Assembly (NCBI GenBank): GCA_014860115.1
Contig: JACZKK010000149.1
Location: 1-50,559 of the forward strand
Reading direction: 5' to 3'
Length of the DNA stretch: 50,559 bases
Source: Ignavibacteriaceae bacterium
Lineage (GTDB): Bacteria > Bacteroidota > Ignavibacteria > Ignavibacteriales > Ignavibacteriaceae
The translations under genes were made by a program, and so were the position numbers. Under the pieces are notes generated by a model. It made no database searches. It saw only the letters and a program-made list of their open reading frames with translations, and was not told the origin of the DNA. This document shows positions 1 through 6,311 of this stretch, piece after piece; position 1 is the stretch's first letter; the number at the start of each line of letters is the position of its first letter.

Positions 1-18
1 GGTAAACAAAGAAAAAAG

Positions 19-35
19 AATCCTCGTAGAGGATT
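19..35 (+). other. Short hairpin, possible end of an upstream transcript
   Basis: AATCCTC (19-25), loop GTA, GAGGATT (29-35) form a perfect 7-bp stem followed by an AT-rich stretch without a clear T-run. It could be a weak terminator of a gene left of the window. The first 40 bases are open in two plus frames but are too short to assign. Confidence 0.3.
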
Positions 36-40
36 TATAA

Positions 41-93
41 AATGAAATGGTTATCTAATTAACAATTTAACAATCCATAACTAGGAGGATGTA
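41..93 (+). repeat. Repeated 5' leader, copy 1
   Basis: The 50 or so bases before the first T9SS gene are nearly the same as those before the second T9SS gene (about 1568-1622) and before a dead start at 4510. The shared parts are an aaaatgaaatg-like block, ctaattaacaatttaacaa, ccataactaggag, and a strong AGGAGG (83-88) five bases before the ATG. Here the palindromic part seen in the other two copies is absent or lies beyond the left edge. Confidence 0.7.
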
Positions 94-1509
94 ATGAAAA
101 AAATAATTTACTCAGTGCTTTTCTTTTTGCTTACCACACAAATTTGTTTTGGGCAGTGGACACAAGTTGGGCTTAGTGGTGAAACCATCAAAGACATCGC
201 TGTGCAAAACCAAATTATGTTTGCTGTTACTGCTGATAGTTGTGATAGTTGGCAGCCAATGTTCGATCAGTGTCTTGGAAAGTTATATCGTTCCACTGAT
301 AATGGACTAAACTGGGCGATGTTAGTTGATTCTAATGTTGGTGATGTGGCAATATCAACATCAGGTAAGATATTCAAGATCGAGAAGGATAGTGGTTCTT
401 ATTTTGAATCTGCAAACCTGTATTACTCATTAGACAATGGGAATAATTGGATTTGGTCTGATATAGAATGGCAGTTAATTGATTCATTACTATATCCTGA
501 AGAACCAGAAAGAATAACTGTTAGCCCTGAGGGAATTATTTATTGCAATATTGTAGATGGGTATTCAGATTATGAACAAAAGATATCTTCTGTAAATGCT
601 GAACTTACTGAGGAGATGGAGATAGCCAAATGGCGGGATATAATAGCAAGATCGACTGATGATGGTGTTACCTGGTCAACACCTGGTAAAAGTGTTATAG
701 GTGGCGATGAATTTAATCTTAAAGCCAGCCTTGTTACTACCGTTGGTTTTAACTTTAGACCTAGCTTTGCTGGGCCCGACGAGTATTACTCTTATATACA
801 TATAAGTTCAGATTATGGGAATACCTGGAATTATCTTGGCAGTCCTTTAATATGGTACATCAAACCAATTCATATTTTAAGTCATTTTTCAAATGACAAT
901 ATTTTTGCTAATGCGGAAGATATCTTATACTTATCTACTGATACTTGTATTACCTGGACCCCAATAGCAACACTTAGTATTCAATCAGGCTTATGCTGGT
1001 CAAGCGGTTCATCAGAAGGAATGCTAATTGGAACAGAGGATTTAGGTGTCTTTGTATTTTCTGACGAAGGTGACAGCTTAGGTTCAAAAAACGAAGGACT
1101 AACAAATCTCAACATTCAAGCACTCACTCTCGATAACAACGGATATGTATATACGGGGACAGAAAATGGTGTTTGGAGAAGGCCTTTGTCTGAGATAGTT
1201 ACTTCAGTTGATGATGAACCAACTCAACCAACAGCATTTATTCTTGAGCAAAATTATCCCAATCCTTTCAATCCAAGTACAGTGATCAGATATCAGTTAC
1301 CAGTAAGTGGTGATGTAACACTTAAAGTTTACGACATTCTCGGCAACGAAGTGGCCACTTTGGTCAATGAATATAAAACTGCAGGTAAGTATGAAGTTGA
1401 GTTCAGTATTTATTCCGATAAAGGTCAGAATCTCAGTAGTGGAATATATTTCTACAAACTTCAAACTGGTGAATATACAGCAGTGAACAAAATGGTATTA
1501 CTGAGATAA
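94..1509 (+). CDS. Secreted Asp-box (BNR) repeat protein with T9SS sorting domain
   Basis: This 471-residue protein begins with a signal peptide (residues 1 to about 20, ending FGQ). It carries at least five Asp-box/BNR-like motifs of the S-x-D-x-G-x-x-W type (STDNGLNW, SLDNGNNW, STDDGVTW, SSDYGNTW and a degenerate STDTCITW), which predicts a beta-propeller like those of sialidases and photosystem II assembly proteins. Residues from about 385 hold the type IX secretion C-terminal sorting domain, starting at LEQNYPNPFNPST and ending KMVLLR. It should be exported, passed through the T9SS and anchored to or released from the surface. No catalytic residues were assigned, so substrate binding or adhesion is as likely as hydrolysis. 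The ATG has an AGGAGG at ideal spacing. Confidence 0.88.
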   Translation: MKKIIYSVLFFLLTTQICFGQWTQVGLSGETIKDIAVQNQIMFAVTADSCDSWQPMFDQCLGKLYRSTDNGLNWAMLVDSNVGDVAISTSGKIFKIEKDSGSYFESANLYYSLDNGNNWIWSDIEWQLIDSLLYPEEPERITVSPEGIIYCNIVDGYSDYEQKISSVNAELTEEMEIAKWRDIIARSTDDGVTWSTPGKSVIGGDEFNLKASLVTTVGFNFRPSFAGPDEYYSYIHISSDYGNTWNYLGSPLIWYIKPIHILSHFSNDNIFANAEDILYLSTDTCITWTPIATLSIQSGLCWSSGSSEGMLIGTEDLGVFVFSDEGDSLGSKNEGLTNLNIQALTLDNNGYVYTGTENGVWRRPLSEIVTSVDDEPTQPTAFILEQNYPNPFNPSTVIRYQLPVSGDVTLKVYDILGNEVATLVNEYKTAGKYEVEFSIYSDKGQNLSSGIYFYKLQTGEYTAVNKMVLLR

Positions 1510-1622
1510 TCAAATCACATTGTAGGGACACAATGTGTTGTGTCCCTACAAGGGCAATGTGAGATATGAAAATAAAATTGTTCTCTAACAAATTATTTAA
1601 CAACCATAAATAGGAGGTTCTT
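1508..1622 (+). repeat. Palindrome plus leader cassette, copy 2
   Basis: The whole gap between the two T9SS genes is one repeat unit that recurs at 4392-4509. It has a 14-bp perfect stem, TTGTAGGGACACAA (1520-1533) against TTGTGTCCCTACAA (1538-1551). An outer pair, CACATTG and CAATGTG (1516-1522, 1555-1561), gives an alternative or longer structure. It is followed by gatatgaaaat, a poorly conserved stretch, and the leader tttaacaaccataaataggagg that supplies the ribosome binding site of the next gene. No open frame of note lies in it. Confidence 0.85.
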
Positions 1623-4370
1623 ATGAAATCGTTCATTTTCAAATTGTTTTTGCTCATTACTTTTTTGTTTCTGAGCAGCGGTGATTTACTTGCCCAGGTA
1701 AACTGGATAAAGTATCCGGGTAATCCAGTTCTTACGGGTCAGCCCGGCACATGGTATGCGTATACTACGATGAATTCAGTATTATACAATGCTGATTCAT
1801 CCCGGTATGAAATGTGGTTTACAGCCGGTGCGCAGATTGGATATCCTTATACTATCGGCTTTGCCAGGTCATCTGACGGGATTTCCTGGAACGTGTATTC
1901 GCCTAATCCTGTTCTTACTCCAACTCCGGGAGAGTGGGATGCATATATGGTATTAGCGCCATATGTTTTAAGAGAGAACGGACAGTACAAAATGTGGTAT
2001 ACAGGATGTGCAACATCCTCAATTTTAAATAGAATTGGCTATGCAACTTCTCCGGATGGAATTAACTGGACAAAACACCAATCAAATCCGGTATTATTGC
2101 CAGGTACTGCACCGTGGGAGTCAGCTGCCGTAACTTATCCTTGTATTATGCCATATTCAAATGGTTATAAAATGTGGTACGGTGGATATAATGCAAATTT
2201 GTCAGTAACAGGTATTGGTTATGCTACATCACCGGATGGAATTACCTGGGAGAAATATGCAAATAATCCTGTTCTGTTGCCCGGTGCAAGCAGTCAATGG
2301 GATCATGTAGTGTTTGGCTCACGGGTATTATTCATAGACAACAACTATTATATGTTTTTCACTGGCGAGACCGTTGGTTACCAATCAGATAAAATTGGAT
2401 TGGCGACATCAACAGATGGATTAGTCTGGACAAAATATCCTTCAAATCCAGTTTTACAACCAACCCCAGGGCAATGGGATGGAGGTCGCACAAATTCAGG
2501 CTATGTTCTTTTGGATGCCGATACTCTCAAAATGTATTACTGTGGAATGACAGTTGGTAATACTAATATGCAATTAGGTTTGGCCACCTCCGCGTTTAGT
2601 CCTCCTATACTTCCCGGAACTTACACAGTGGGTACAGGTGGTAACTTCGCAACGATTCAAGATGCATTTACTAAACTTGAAACAGATGGAGTTTCAGGCA
2701 ATGTTACGCTTGAATTGATTGATGAACTTTACACAGCACCAACAGATTCATTTGGCTTAAAATTGAACGGCCCAATTCCCGGTGCCGGACCAAACAGCAG
2801 AGTCACTATTAAACCTGCTGAGAATAAGAATGTTACTATTCAAGGGAGCGCAAATTTTGTGTTGTGCTTAATTAACACTAACTATTTAACATTTGATGGT
2901 GTTTCTATAACAGGTCCAACCACACTAACAATTCGTGCTTTATATAATAATCAATATGTCCATAACAATGGACTTTGTTTTGTAAATAACTCGGACTATA
3001 ACATAGTTCGAAATACAACTTTTATAAATGAGTCATCTTTTAGGCTTGGTGTCGTACTGGGTTTTTTTTCTGATATAAACGTACAGGTTACACCCGATAA
3101 TAATCTTATTCAATCCAATTTTATAAAACAAGCTGGAATCGGAATTTGGGTTGGTACTCATCAACCTAACTTGCAGCCAATAGGCAACATTATTAAAGGT
3201 AACATTGTTGGATCGGAAACGGATAGTCTTATTAGCTGGGGAATTCAGGTTGAACGAAATCAAAATGCTCTCATCGAAGAAAATATTGTTGAGAAAATTA
3301 GGGGTGCCAGTGCAGAATTTGTTATTGCACACGGAATTAATTGCTACGGATGTTCAGAATCTACAATCCGGAATAATATTGTTCATAATGTTAATACGAG
3401 TTATAACAATGGTAGTATGGGTATAGGGTTAACAGGTGATGGTAACACTGTTGGAAATGGAAATCTAGTTTATAATAATATGGTGTACGATATAAATAGC
3501 TCCTCATCAGCATCATACAGTAACATTGGCGGAATTCATCTGGAGTATCAGAACAATACCAAAATTTATTATAATTCAGTTTACTTATCTGGTACAGGAG
3601 CCAATCATCAAGGTTCTGGTGCATTGTATATTTGGAATCCTGGGATGAATACTGAAGTAAAAAATAACATCTTTATTAATACAAGAGATGAAGGACAGTA
3701 CTGCGCTTCTGCAATATATTTGAGGACACAGAACACAGTTTTAAGTTCATCAGACTTCAATGTTCTTAATTATGAGCAAAATAATTACAACTGTCTGGTA
3801 AAATCTAATACCGGTAGTTATCATTCATTAGCTGAATGGCAAGCAACAGGTTATGATGTGAATAGCTATGTTGAAAGGCCTCCTTTTATTTCTTCGACTG
3901 ACCTGCATATTAGTGAAACAATTCCAACATATCTTGAATCAAGAGGAATTCCAATCACAGGTATAGATACAGATTTCGATGGAGATCAGCGGAATGCAGA
4001 TTCTACAGATATAGGCGCTGACGAATTTAATGGAATATATATACCTACCGGAATTGAAGATGAAATTGGAATTCCAACAGAATTTGCACTCGAGCAGAAT
4101 TACCCTAATCCCTTCAACCCAAGCACAAAAATAAAATACTCGGTTCCGCAAACATCACAAGTTCAAATTAAAGTCTTTGATGTATTAGGCAAGGAAATAG
4201 AAACATTAGTAAACGAAGAAAAACCTGCAGGCACTTATGAGATAGAGTTTAATACCTCATCGCTATCAGGCTCCGTTTCCGCCAAAGGTGGATACGCCTC
4301 TGGCGTATATTTCTATCAATTAAAGGCTGAAGAATTTATAGAAACGAAGAAAATGATTTTGCTGAAATAG
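1623..4370 (+). CDS. Secreted five-repeat glycosidase-like propeller plus beta-helix protein with T9SS sorting domain
   Basis: The 915-residue protein has a signal peptide (1 to about 25, LLAQ). Residues 26 to about 330 contain five repeats of about 60 residues that pair a W-x-x-Y-x-x-NPVL motif (YPGNPVL, YSPNPVL, HQSNPVL, YANNPVL, YPSNPVL) with IG(Y/F/L)A(T/R)S-DG-W. This is the pattern of five-bladed propeller glycosidases and phosphorylases (GH43/GH32/GH130-like). From about 333 to 790 the chain is rich in N, V and I with right-handed parallel beta-helix features (NNIV, NTTF, NNMVYDIN), as in pectate-lyase-like folds. The T9SS sorting domain runs from about 828 and ends KKMILLK. Its likely role is binding or cleaving a polysaccharide outside the cell. 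Catalytic acids could not be assigned. AGGAGG precedes the ATG. Confidence 0.85.
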   Translation: MKSFIFKLFLLITFLFLSSGDLLAQVNWIKYPGNPVLTGQPGTWYAYTTMNSVLYNADSSRYEMWFTAGAQIGYPYTIGFARSSDGISWNVYSPNPVLTPTPGEWDAYMVLAPYVLRENGQYKMWYTGCATSSILNRIGYATSPDGINWTKHQSNPVLLPGTAPWESAAVTYPCIMPYSNGYKMWYGGYNANLSVTGIGYATSPDGITWEKYANNPVLLPGASSQWDHVVFGSRVLFIDNNYYMFFTGETVGYQSDKIGLATSTDGLVWTKYPSNPVLQPTPGQWDGGRTNSGYVLLDADTLKMYYCGMTVGNTNMQLGLATSAFSPPILPGTYTVGTGGNFATIQDAFTKLETDGVSGNVTLELIDELYTAPTDSFGLKLNGPIPGAGPNSRVTIKPAENKNVTIQGSANFVLCLINTNYLTFDGVSITGPTTLTIRALYNNQYVHNNGLCFVNNSDYNIVRNTTFINESSFRLGVVLGFFSDINVQVTPDNNLIQSNFIKQAGIGIWVGTHQPNLQPIGNIIKGNIVGSETDSLISWGIQVERNQNALIEENIVEKIRGASAEFVIAHGINCYGCSESTIRNNIVHNVNTSYNNGSMGIGLTGDGNTVGNGNLVYNNMVYDINSSSSASYSNIGGIHLEYQNNTKIYYNSVYLSGTGANHQGSGALYIWNPGMNTEVKNNIFINTRDEGQYCASAIYLRTQNTVLSSSDFNVLNYEQNNYNCLVKSNTGSYHSLAEWQATGYDVNSYVERPPFISSTDLHISETIPTYLESRGIPITGIDTDFDGDQRNADSTDIGADEFNGIYIPTGIEDEIGIPTEFALEQNYPNPFNPSTKIKYSVPQTSQVQIKVFDVLGKEIETLVNEEKPAGTYEIEFNTSSLSGSVSAKGGYASGVYFYQLKAEEFIETKKMILLK
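4280..4305 (+). repeat. In-frame palindromic insert inside the sorting domain
   Basis: CGCCAAAGG (4280-4288) and CCTCTGGCG (4297-4305) form an inverted repeat with one mismatch, inside the coding sequence. It encodes SVSAKGGYA between SLSG and SGVYFYQL. The sorting domain of the gene upstream goes straight from NLSSG to IYFYKL, so about 11 residues look inserted. The flanks tcaggc and tctggc are near-duplicates. Confidence 0.5.
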
Positions 4371-4386
4371 CGACAAATGTCGTTAT
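4367..4386 (+). terminator. Hairpin overlapping the stop codon
   Basis: ATAGCGACA (4367-4375) and TGTCGTTAT (4378-4386) pair over nine positions with one G-U, around a two-base loop. The stem includes the TAG stop of the T9SS gene. There is no T-run, so termination is uncertain. Confidence 0.35.
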
Positions 4387-4391
4387 AGAAA

Positions 4392-4509
4392 ATAATCAAA
4401 TCACATTGTAGGGACACAATATATTGTGTCCCTACGAAGGCAATGTGAGATATGAAAATGAAATGATTTTCTAATTAAAAATTTAACAACCATAACTAGG
4501 AGATTAGAA
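4392..4509 (+). repeat. Palindrome plus leader cassette, copy 3
   Basis: This closely repeats copy 2. It begins aatcaaatcacattgtaggg and holds a perfect 28-base palindrome (4408-4435; half-site GTAGGGACACAATA), followed by the CAATGTGA arm (4441-4448). The leader aaaatgaaatgattttctaatta and the ribosome binding region ccataactaggag follow, leading to the ATG at 4510. The full cassette is present but there is no gene behind it. Confidence 0.85.
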
Positions 4510-4527
4510 ATGAAGAAAATGATTTGA
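4510..4527 (+). pseudogene. Stub of a third T9SS-type gene
   Basis: Behind a complete leader and ribosome binding site the frame reads M-K-K-M-I-stop. The bases resemble the signal-peptide start of the first gene (atgaaaaaaataattt). They also match, at 18 of 19 positions from 4507, the end of the preceding sorting domain (4341-4359, coding ETKKMI). Either the start of a third paralogue has decayed or a deletion has joined a leader to a sorting-domain tail. Confidence 0.35.
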
Positions 4528-4540
4528 TCAATAAAATAAT

Positions 4541-4612
4541 CCCTCCTTCATCCTCCCCTTTAGCAAAGGGGAGAAACGAGGTGGGGTTTGAAATAAAGCC
4601 CTCACCCTAAAA
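4541..4612. repeat. Dispersed short palindrome, copy A
   Basis: CTCCCCTTT (4553-4561), loop AGC, AAAGGGGAG (4565-4573) is a perfect 9-bp hairpin. It is followed by gaggtgggg and ccctcaccc. Hairpins of the same design, with a pyrimidine-rich arm, a 3-base loop and a trailing purine stretch, occur at 30062-30084, 30161-30181 and, less perfectly, 47302-47319. Confidence 0.6.
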
Positions 4613-4616
4613 AATT

Positions 4617-6311
4617 TTAAATATCTTTAGTAAAGAGCCTCACACCTTTTGATATGCTGAGATATGCTACAATAAATGATATCATTCCAAGTATTAAACT
4701 TGTATAAAGCAATTGAGAGAGCGAAGCAAAGCTTCCTTTATCCATTGCGTAAAAATAATTTGTCAAAGGTGCGAACAATAAAACAACTAGAAACACGAGA
4801 TAAATAATCGTAAATAGAAAAGTTAGTGAAGCTCCCTGAGATGAAGCAACTCTGATCGGATTCTTCTCTTTGTAATTAGCATACGCAGCACCCATACCAA
4901 AGTTTAATGATACCAGAGTAATTGTAACTAATGCAGTATTCAGTTGAGAAATTAAAGTTAACATAATTGAAAACTGGTAATTAGAAACAAAATTAAGTAG
5001 CTGTCCAATCACAAAGATGACTGAGAAGTAAATGAATAATCTCGTAAGCATCAGTTTCTTATAATTCAATGGGGCGCTTCTAATTTTCCAGATTGTTTCG
5101 CCTTCAAGACTGACAAGCGGGAAAATAAATCTCAATGACATTGAGGCAATCAAGAAAACATTGAACAGATAAATGATCAGGTATATTAGCGTTTTCAGGT
5201 AGATGTTGTATGCGTTCAAAATCATCACATCAATATTCGAGATGGACAGTATAAAAATTGTGATTAAGAACAGCATTATAATAAAATGAGTCCACTGGCT
5301 TGGCTCTCTTATAAATAAAAGCAGTTCACGCTTTACTAATGCCTCGCGTCTTGGTTTAAGTGATGATTTATTTTCAAAGGTGCAGGTCACTGTACCTTTA
5401 CTTTTTTTCTTGACTGAAAGTTCACCCGAAAGATTTAAGAATACCAGCCACGCTTTGTAAAACCATTTTTTGGCCAGGTAAAGAGAAAACAAGAAGAACA
5501 AAATCGAGACCACTATCAAAAGGTAAATATACCAGCCCGCAGCAATAAATCTTCCTGAAGAAATCCAGTATAGCGCATCTGCAACCCAATGATTTGGCAG
5601 CAGTTTGATTGCTGGGCTTTCCAGAAAACCAAAATAATTATTTATGTTAGGGAAGTATTCAAATACCTTTGTAACCAATTGAACTGGGCTGCTGAAGTTG
5701 TAAAATAATATAACGGCCGTCCCATAGGCTGAGGCTATTGTAACAAGCACTTTTTTAATCCCAAATGTTGCGGCAAACCTCATAATTACAAGAAGAGTTA
5801 TGGCTCCAAGAGTTCCTGCAATGAACATAAAAGGTAGTATTAAAAACACGACAGCTAATGGAATAAAATACCAGGGCAGTCCGAAGTATGAAGTGTAACC
5901 TGCTAATGCAGCACTCACCATAAGTAAAAGTGTTGAGGAACTGTAGAAGAAATTATCGAAAAATTTTATAAGAAATATTTTCGCAAATGAAATCGGCATT
6001 GTCAATAAGAAACCAACTTCCCTTGTTTTAAAAAATGTTGAGTATGAAACAACAATGTTCCCGATGTTAACAGTCATAAAAAAAATGAACAGCACAACAA
6101 AAACAAACCTGTGAAGCAGGAACATTCCAATTTTCACATCTTCCATCAGATAGTTAATGATGTTACGTGTGAAAAAGAAAATACCAATGGCGAAAAGAAG
6201 ATAAACTACTGATGCACTTAGTTGTTTGAGAAGAGACTTAAAATTGAGTTCATCCTGGAGCTTAATAAACGTGAGTATTTTGAATTTTAATATGTGAAGT
6301 AAAGGACTCAT
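4617..6311 (-). CDS. ABC exporter permease subunit
   Basis: This 564-residue polytopic protein has about ten to twelve hydrophobic segments and no ATPase motif. It follows directly on the ATPase gene: the TAA of that gene (6312-6314) is immediately followed by this ATG, so the two form one transporter. Length and layout fit the putative ABC exporter/ABC-2 type permease families. A cytosolic stretch rich in K and E (residues about 300-330) sits in the middle. The substrate is unknown. The assignment as permease is firm and the subfamily is tentative. Confidence 0.82.
   Translation of the reverse strand: MSPLLHILKFKILTFIKLQDELNFKSLLKQLSASVVYLLFAIGIFFFTRNIINYLMEDVKIGMFLLHRFVFVVLFIFFMTVNIGNIVVSYSTFFKTREVGFLLTMPISFAKIFLIKFFDNFFYSSSTLLLMVSAALAGYTSYFGLPWYFIPLAVVFLILPFMFIAGTLGAITLLVIMRFAATFGIKKVLVTIASAYGTAVILFYNFSSPVQLVTKVFEYFPNINNYFGFLESPAIKLLPNHWVADALYWISSGRFIAAGWYIYLLIVVSILFFLFSLYLAKKWFYKAWLVFLNLSGELSVKKKSKGTVTCTFENKSSLKPRREALVKRELLLFIREPSQWTHFIIMLFLITIFILSISNIDVMILNAYNIYLKTLIYLIIYLFNVFLIASMSLRFIFPLVSLEGETIWKIRSAPLNYKKLMLTRLFIYFSVIFVIGQLLNFVSNYQFSIMLTLISQLNTALVTITLVSLNFGMGAAYANYKEKNPIRVASSQGASLTFLFTIIYLVFLVVLLFAPLTNYFYAMDKGSFASLSQLLYTSLILGMISFIVAYLSISKGVRLFTKDI

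Follow-up and report, generated by a model that had tools for sequence, protein, structure and literature searches.

Palindromes behind T9SS genes of an Ignavibacteriaceae bacterium: most likely a known kind of mobile repeat, beside an independent shared gene start

The 'double-foot' REPs (repetitive extragenic palindromes) of TnpAREP subclass 2.4 have been described as lying in frame inside tnpAREP genes (Quentin et al., 2018; PMC6006769). According to the subclass 2.4 description in that paper they have a GT[AG]G 5' end, a C[TC]AC 3' end and a long hairpin, and they occur as dispersed copies in Bacteroidetes and scattered phyla; the palindromes analyzed here have all of this in common with them. 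Unlike the elements in that description, they also cluster at T9SS genes in this genus, they occupy a single loop of the sorting domain, in frame, in the source genome and several relatives, and the source genome is without a RAYT-internal copy and has a RAYT with the motif DHLH. The GTAG-tagged REPs (Di Nocera et al., 2013; PMC3733652) share the GTAG tag, the stem-loop and some intragenic copies, and likewise prefer gene 3' ends and convergent gaps, but in the account given there they carry GTAG at one end only, unlike the window palindromes. The groups that this account names for the GTAG families are Proteobacteria, Cyanobacteria, Chloroflexi and the PVC group, and Bacteroidetes/Chlorobi are not among them. 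REPINs, or inverted REP pairs, also have outer GTAG feet, and pairs on two contigs of the source genome (C169 and C47) lie 3' of T9SS-tail stops too; they consist of two hairpins and a spacer, whereas the window repeat is a single 28-bp palindrome. The Rickettsia palindromic elements cited by Di Nocera et al. (2013) are palindromic and in frame in protein genes as well, but those mentioned there belong to other families (the CGTC-tagged RPE-4 and RPE-6, and the longer RPE-1) and are given no sorting-domain site. Compared with these systems, the window palindromes are most likely copies of an already described mobile repeat kind that settles just after genes.

The window comprised 50,559 nt of contig JACZKK010000149.1 (C212) of Ignavibacteriaceae bacterium, assembly GCA_014860115.1, and the repeats were studied in positions 19-4575 (Table 1). 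The source genome is a 3.93-Mb assembly of 222 contigs; in the following, its contigs are given as C numbers and other genomes as G numbers. A sequence-only reading of the window had reported two near-identical palindromes, which was borne out, as they are alike at 26 of 28 bases. It had also reported three near-identical leaders: three copies do exist, but leaders 2 and 3 are 80% and 91% identical to leader 1 over 35 nt, for which the wording is generous. Each unit had been said to stand before a T9SS gene or gene stub, which is correct for leaders 1 and 2, while behind leader 3 there is only the five-codon ORF; directly in front of leader 1 there is no palindrome of the 28-bp type, only the different one at its left. 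Both window palindromes lie 3' of a T9SS stop, a position absent from the sequence-only reading. C122 and G003:C113 have hairpins similar to the one at 4551-4575, in each case with a T9SS gene on one side and a leader on the other. A sigma-70 scan of positions 1-5000 gave 18 matches against 21.1 expected, no excess over chance. The window and C169 overlap exactly at their ends, by 141 nt (positions 1-141 of each); the two contigs are probably neighbours, but the overlap may also stem from a repeat node of the assembly.

Table 1. Features in the studied part of the window (positions in the 50,559-nt stretch)
Feature	Position	Strand	Remarks
Palindrome of a different family, AATCCTCGTAGAGGATT	19..35	no strand	Same family flanks the IS200-like tnpA on C169
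Leader 1, core CATAACTAGGAGG at 76-88	39..93	+	28-bp palindrome absent directly upstream
T9SS gene 1, 471 aa	94..1509	+	Type A sorting domain aa 388-468; PF18962 / TIGR04183
Extended stem-loop enclosing palindrome 1	1515..1562	+	TCACAT/ATGTGA pairing outside the palindrome; z -5.25
Palindrome 1, 28-bp, double-foot REP-like	1522..1549	no strand	12 nt 3' of the gene 1 stop
Leader 2, core 1605-1617	1563..1622	+	Similarity to leader 1
T9SS gene 2, 915 aa	1623..4370	+	Sorting domain aa 827-912; PF18962 / TIGR04183
T9SS gene 2, N-terminal part	1623..4370	+	Glycosidase-like (GH130/GH32)
Palindrome 2, 28-bp, double-foot REP-like	4408..4435	no strand	37 nt 3' of the gene 2 stop
Leader 3, core 4491-4503	4445..4509	+	Similarity to leader 1
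Five-codon remnant ORF (MKKMI, stop) behind leader 3	4510..4527	+	
Hairpin of another repeat, CCTCCCCTTTAGCAAAGGGGAG	4551..4575	no strand	

Palindrome 2 consists of self-complementary 14-nt arms and palindrome 1 of 12-nt arms around a 4-nt centre, and folding gave strong hairpins (z -5 to -8). With a degenerate 28-mer and up to 2 mismatches, nine copies were found in the source genome, located on seven contigs (C212 and C43 with two each, C107, C63, C128, C67 and C194), and none were found with the reversed pattern as a control, which supports a dispersed REP-like element. The 14-mer of the sequence-only reading, used alone with 2 mismatches, gave 11 and 10 matches against 4 and 9 in the control, which is little above control. 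Both feet (GT[AG]G ... C[TC]AC) are intact in seven of the nine copies, and each of the two C43 copies has one foot altered, to GTAT or GTAC. The copies form one long hairpin with 12- to 14-nt arms and are multiple and dispersed, as is characteristic of double-foot REPs. A literature search on parts of the palindrome letters returned nothing judged relevant.

The 28-mer pattern was present in 15 of 146 genomes (relatives, with the source genome among the 146) and, with up to 1 mismatch, in 21 of 395 genomes sampled across the phylum. A scan of named genomes yielded at least 114 stretches, the titles of which include Bacteroidetes, Chloroflexi, Cyanothece, Planctomycetes and Patescibacteria. 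The copy number was low, with 1-11 per genome for the patterns used; the 11 copies were counted for G096 in the phylum sample, and 10 of them were inspected for placement. Relatives carry genome-specific versions of the palindrome in which the two arms mostly change in step. The four variable bases were identical in 154 of 221 copy pairs within a genome, compared to 1738 of 19480 pairs between genomes, with copies that share identical 15-nt flanks merged into one (hence C43 and G103 once each). Outside the 28 bp, the 166 copies with both flanks showed only a weak excess of T at position -1 (49%). An insertion target motif was rejected on the same set, in which no clear tetranucleotide was seen.

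All seven extragenic copies of the source genome lie 10-37 nt behind a stop codon, and in five of these cases it is the stop codon of a T9SS gene. With the two copies on C43, which are within T9SS sorting-domain sequence, seven of nine are located just after or inside T9SS genes, a distribution that is not random with respect to these genes (P 3e-8 to 2e-6 for 150 to 280 T9SS genes; P 6e-6 to 1e-4 when counted by contig, 5/7). These values assume a total of 3,000 genes and treat the copies as independent, although neighbours and relatives are not; the range of T9SS genes reflects at least 150 sorting domains, with 150 of 280 candidates scored. A T9SS gene start within 100 bases, which the sequence-only reading had proposed to look for, was found at only two of the nine palindromes (C212:1522 and C128). 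The C107 palindrome is followed by a gene for an exported protein that has no sorting tail, and the one at C212:4408 by the five-codon ORF. The palindrome is an element of gene 3' ends and not of T9SS gene starts; it looked upstream because T9SS genes stand in tandem.

Within the same genus, copies were located at T9SS 3' ends in G002 (2/2), G003 (1/3) and G004 (1/1). The corresponding numbers were 0/6 in G022, 0/4 in G137, 0/3 in G040 and 0/2 in G050, with some neighbours lost at contig ends; the T9SS association is therefore not universal, and most copies of other genomes are not at T9SS genes. Placement was analyzed for 170 distinct copies, of which 38 inside ORFs of at least 100 aa and 49 at a contig edge or in a gap of more than 600 nt were left out, so that 83 remained. 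The nearest gene boundary was a stop codon for 70 of these 83 (random, 1025/2126), and 29 of them were 8-18 nt from a stop (random, 173/2126). Convergent gaps held 39/83 copies (random, 424/2126) and divergent gaps 4/83. ORFs were taken from a simple longest-ORF script; a YPNPF-type motif served to recognize T9SS tails and a P[ND]H.H-type motif to recognize RAYTs, and profile searches backed only part of the T9SS-tail and RAYT calls. Placement near stop codons and in convergent gaps is what has been reported for REPs in the sections of Di Nocera et al. (2013; PMC3733652) on their location.

A rival reading of the palindrome is a host element at the 3' end of T9SS transcripts, a terminator or mRNA stabilizer that is kept for its function and is not mobile. 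The hairpins are strong, and six of the seven extragenic copies of the source genome lie 10-18 nt behind the stop codon. We nevertheless consider a host element improbable, since most foreign copies are away from T9SS genes, copies also occur inside RAYT and T9SS coding sequence, the gene strand is without a T-run, and terminator-like matches were found at both palindromes only on the - strand. An intrinsic terminator, with a G+C-rich hairpin and a T-run behind it on the gene strand, was rejected for both palindromes. The palindrome may act as a 3' hairpin after insertion, and REPs near stop codons can, as reportedly found by Liang et al. in 2015, affect translation. An operator for a transcription factor of the T9SS genes, to which the dyad symmetry and the frequent likeness of copies within a genome would be suited, can hardly be correct: the copies are 3' of genes and in convergent rather than divergent gaps, which is the opposite of what an operator needs, and some are inside coding sequence.

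The 13-base leader core CATAACTAGGAGG was found at 11 places in the genome (up to 1 mismatch), and the reversed control also gave 11, so the short core alone is no evidence. Leaders were instead recognized by longer similarity and by a start codon 4-6 nt behind the core. Eleven were counted, as the core match on C169 is the overlap with C212:76 and the C107 leader was added via the homologous spacer. Eight of them are clear (E <0.001; C212 three times, C107, C122, C34, C95 and C47) and three are weaker (C84, E 0.02; C211, E 2.95; C179, no similarity match), and the leader is also present in the relatives G002, G003 and G004. In 10 of the 11 cases an ORF of at least 132 aa opens at a distance of 4-5 nt from the core. 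Seven of the genes have a T9SS tail, the C107 leader is followed by the exported protein already mentioned and the C84 leader by a response-regulator-like protein, the C179 gene runs off the contig, and leader 3 has no gene behind it. When the gene at position 94 was compared with those on C47, C122 and C95, identity was 81-93% in the leader core, 26-70% in the first 30 nt behind it and 83-97% in a 30-nt window of the signal peptide, and it then fell to 33-47%, the level of unrelated pairs in the same comparison. The similarity between the C34 gene and the gene at 1623 continues further, as in an ordinary paralogue. A leader shared across T9SS genes, as previously proposed, was thus supported, and this shared 5' module of leader and signal-peptide DNA exists independently of the palindrome.

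The sequence-only reading had combined palindrome, leader and gene start into one mobile unit that founds new T9SS genes. Palindrome and leader do occur together in three spacers (C212 twice and C107) of 99-114 nt that are 86-88% alike, and leader and signal peptide are common to genes that diverge further on. However, the palindrome is absent in front of five of the eight clear leaders, or eight of all 11, and six of the nine palindromes are without a leader (C63, C194, C67, C128 and both on C43); the leader at C212:76 has other palindromes in front, not the 28-bp one. Duplication of one spacer accounts for all three joint cases: positions 1506-1619 match 4392-4505 over 114 nt with 88% identity (E 5e-35), and the same spacer is present on C107 (99 nt, 86% identity). 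The sequence-only reading had named two outcomes that would speak against its proposal: leaders that mostly lack the palindrome, which is what was observed, and a random scatter of palindromes with respect to T9SS genes, which was not. In the wider family there is no consensus past the 28-bp feet except for the weak T. We therefore regard a single mobile unit as quite improbable, and the upstream cassette was abandoned in favour of two separate elements.

Inverted REP pairs of the form GTAGGG..CCCTAC, with 4-30 bases between, gave 6 and 6 matches in the source genome against 2 and 2 in the control. On C169 such a pair takes the place that the palindrome has in the spacers of C212 and C107; it begins 9 nt behind the stop codon of an ORF with a T9SS tail, and the sequence to its right matches the spacer to the right of palindrome 2 at 27 of 32 positions. 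Another pair is located on C47, 3 nt behind a T9SS stop codon. Quentin et al. (2018; PMC6006769) point out that a central deletion in an inverted REP pair could produce the double foot. The C169/C212 and C47 pairs agree with this origin, either direction being possible, and the C169/C212 spacer pair provides a natural example for this proposed descent of double-foot REPs from inverted pairs.

The source genome contains four Y1 transposase genes, on C128, C169, C58 and C180. The one on C128 is a RAYT according to the NCBIfam model REP_Tyr_transpos (NF047646; 81.9, cut-off 80); it shows the motifs PDHLH, WQ and YIDENP and is flanked by REP pairs with the outer feet GTAGGG and CCCTAC. Its assignment to subclass 2.4, for which Table 1 of Quentin et al. 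(2018; PMC6006769) gives NH[IFV]H, WQ and YIxNNP, was rejected, as it has DHLH instead of the first and YIDENP instead of the last motif. The tnpA on C169 (1050-2000) passes the IS200 model (83.2 against 55), and its Y motif YIANQEVHH is like that of subclass 1.2, listed without REPs in the classification of Quentin et al. (2018; PMC6006769). Many CCTCTACGAGG / ACATCGTAGATGT palindromes lie on both sides of this gene, with more copies up to leader 1 of the window. The genes on C58 (406-998) and C180 (around 5600-6150) are each flanked by a palindrome of their own, CCACGAGCTnnAGCTCGTGG and CCTCAGGCnnnnnGCCTGAGG, respectively. None of the 28-bp palindromes was found inside the two RAYT-like genes of the source genome that were translated (C180 and C128); the one nearest to a RAYT is 2.1 kb away, on C128, compared with the distance of up to about 1 kb given for double-foot REPs, while in other genomes it is inside the gene. 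Across the 146 genomes, a C128-like RAYT was present in 11/15 with the palindrome and 62/131 without it (P 0.10, not significant), so RAYT presence alone gives no link to the palindrome. Judged from its sequence and surroundings, the C128 RAYT would be the best candidate among the four for moving the palindrome copies.

In-frame palindromes inside RAYT genes were found in at least 14 other genomes by the variable-base motif, and additionally in G022, the copy of which was counted as a plain ORF in the variable-base comparison because the motif did not fit. The copy is located just behind the HUH motif in RAYT-like genes of G096, G114 (two genes), G022, G155, G166, G179, G193, G234 and G290, of which the last four belong to one genus. 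Among the matches listed, the named genomes with such a copy are Ignavibacteria RIFOXYC2_FULL_35_21, a Sphingomonadales bin, BP8.bin32, Anaerolineae maxbin.031, Marinimicrobia UBA2242 and Parcubacteria GW2011_GWA2_40_23. In the genomes with a RAYT-internal copy, 21 of the 25 other copies have the same variable bases as that copy, where 245/2495 (~10%) would be expected from other genomes. Some of the RAYT genes look damaged: in G096 and G114:C21 a stop codon interrupts the wider frame, and the partial G096 ORF that holds the palindrome reached an NCBIfam score of 40, under the cut-off of 80. One RAYT gene at G155:C89 4546-4700 and nearby holds three in-frame palindromes in a 2-mismatch scan, with degenerate repeats between them.

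Among the matches listed, 20 copies (raw count; 18 after merging identical 15-nt flanks) lie in frame in T9SS sorting domains of seven genomes: two on C43 of the source genome, five in G096, eight in G097, two in G103 and one each in G084, G122 and RIFOXYC2_FULL_35_21. They occupy one site, before the strand '.LKVYD..G' and mostly directly behind '..I.F.IP', in the same reading phase, and typically encode V-G-x-x-[NY]-[FI]-x-P-x. The eight copies listed for G097 all fall within sorting domains, and these domains account for ~0.8% of the genome; the P value for this assumes independence of the copies. In a structure model of one such domain (mean pLDDT 83, 8 sequences), the encoded residues 31-39 were placed in a loop between strands 20-27 and 40-47, at low confidence (pLDDT 67 at 31-40). 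A PDB sequence search with one sorting domain returned only a weak T9SS match (E 0.16). The beta-sandwich domains found by a fold search included T9SS sorting domains, with E values from 0.007 to 0.04.

Between paralogues of a genome, compared for 12 of the 20 in-domain copies, the palindromes are 93-100% identical and the next 30 nt 47-97%, mostly 60-85%; the palindromes are thus younger than most of the duplications, or have been kept alike. One G097 pair is alike throughout. In the C43 pair, identity is high beside the palindrome and drops with distance, which local gene conversion fits as well as insertion, and gene conversion between domains is the alternative to repeated insertion in general. 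Other insertions at the same loop were seen in 4 of 20 lengthened sorting domains of the source genome that were aligned, from about 25 picked by eye (L372, L381, L386 and L390; those of L372 and L381 are nearly identical). These are in frame and of the types VTLSEVEGS, VTLRQAQSD and LSPPLLKGESEAGG, and similar strings elsewhere suggest that they may be mobile repeats; a string of the L390 type, for instance, recurs in L158 and in the hairpin near 4551. A second loop, before '.SSG.YFY', appeared lengthened in 15 of the 20 domains when the alignment was read by eye, and window gene 2 (4101-4358) is lengthened there as well, with SGSVSAKGGYA before SSGVYFY. Mobile palindromes may have a recurrent landing site in the T9SS type A sorting domain, namely the loop that connects its second and third strands. 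Double-foot REPs, together with three or more further types of short repeat, would have entered this loop in frame in surface-protein genes, independently in several lineages of Ignavibacteriales and relatives. A selfish repeat would then keep altering the export tag of an entire class of proteins, which might influence their secretion or anchoring; we put this forward tentatively, as a serious possibility that falls somewhat short of being probable. As far as searched, the sorting-domain location is new: a literature search for T9SS together with repetitive extragenic palindromes, with subscription journals mostly outside its reach, found no paper joining both.

We consider it probable that the palindromes are non-autonomous double-foot REPs, multiplied by RAYTs and surviving at harmless sites, and that the leader is a separate module. 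Each palindrome would be a small element of one long stem, the two ends of which are GTAG and the complementary CTAC. Copies would most likely be multiplied by RAYT/TnpAREP (REP-associated Y1/HUH transposases) through single-strand processing, and would survive mainly where harm is small, a few to a few tens of bases behind a stop codon or in an in-frame surface loop. Most known copies in the genus are at T9SS genes, which are numerous and often in tandem, so that the copy after one gene precedes the next. The leader would represent the 5' untranslated region and ribosome-binding site common to a group of T9SS genes, spread by recombination or duplication, in part with signal-peptide DNA; in the window spacers leader and palindrome are neighbours, and that spacer was duplicated. 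No palindrome site was seen to differ between strains, and hence the movement itself was not observed.

The outcome is a known repeat kind, correctly noticed and read from the wrong side, and an independent shared gene start. A supposed surface-gene cassette is replaced by a known repeat class with its habitat. Confirmation of the sorting-domain site would make it a clear example of a mobile element by which many exported proteins gain the same 9-10 residues at a single position, and natural pairs could then be used to compare directly the cost or benefit of inserting a REP into a protein.
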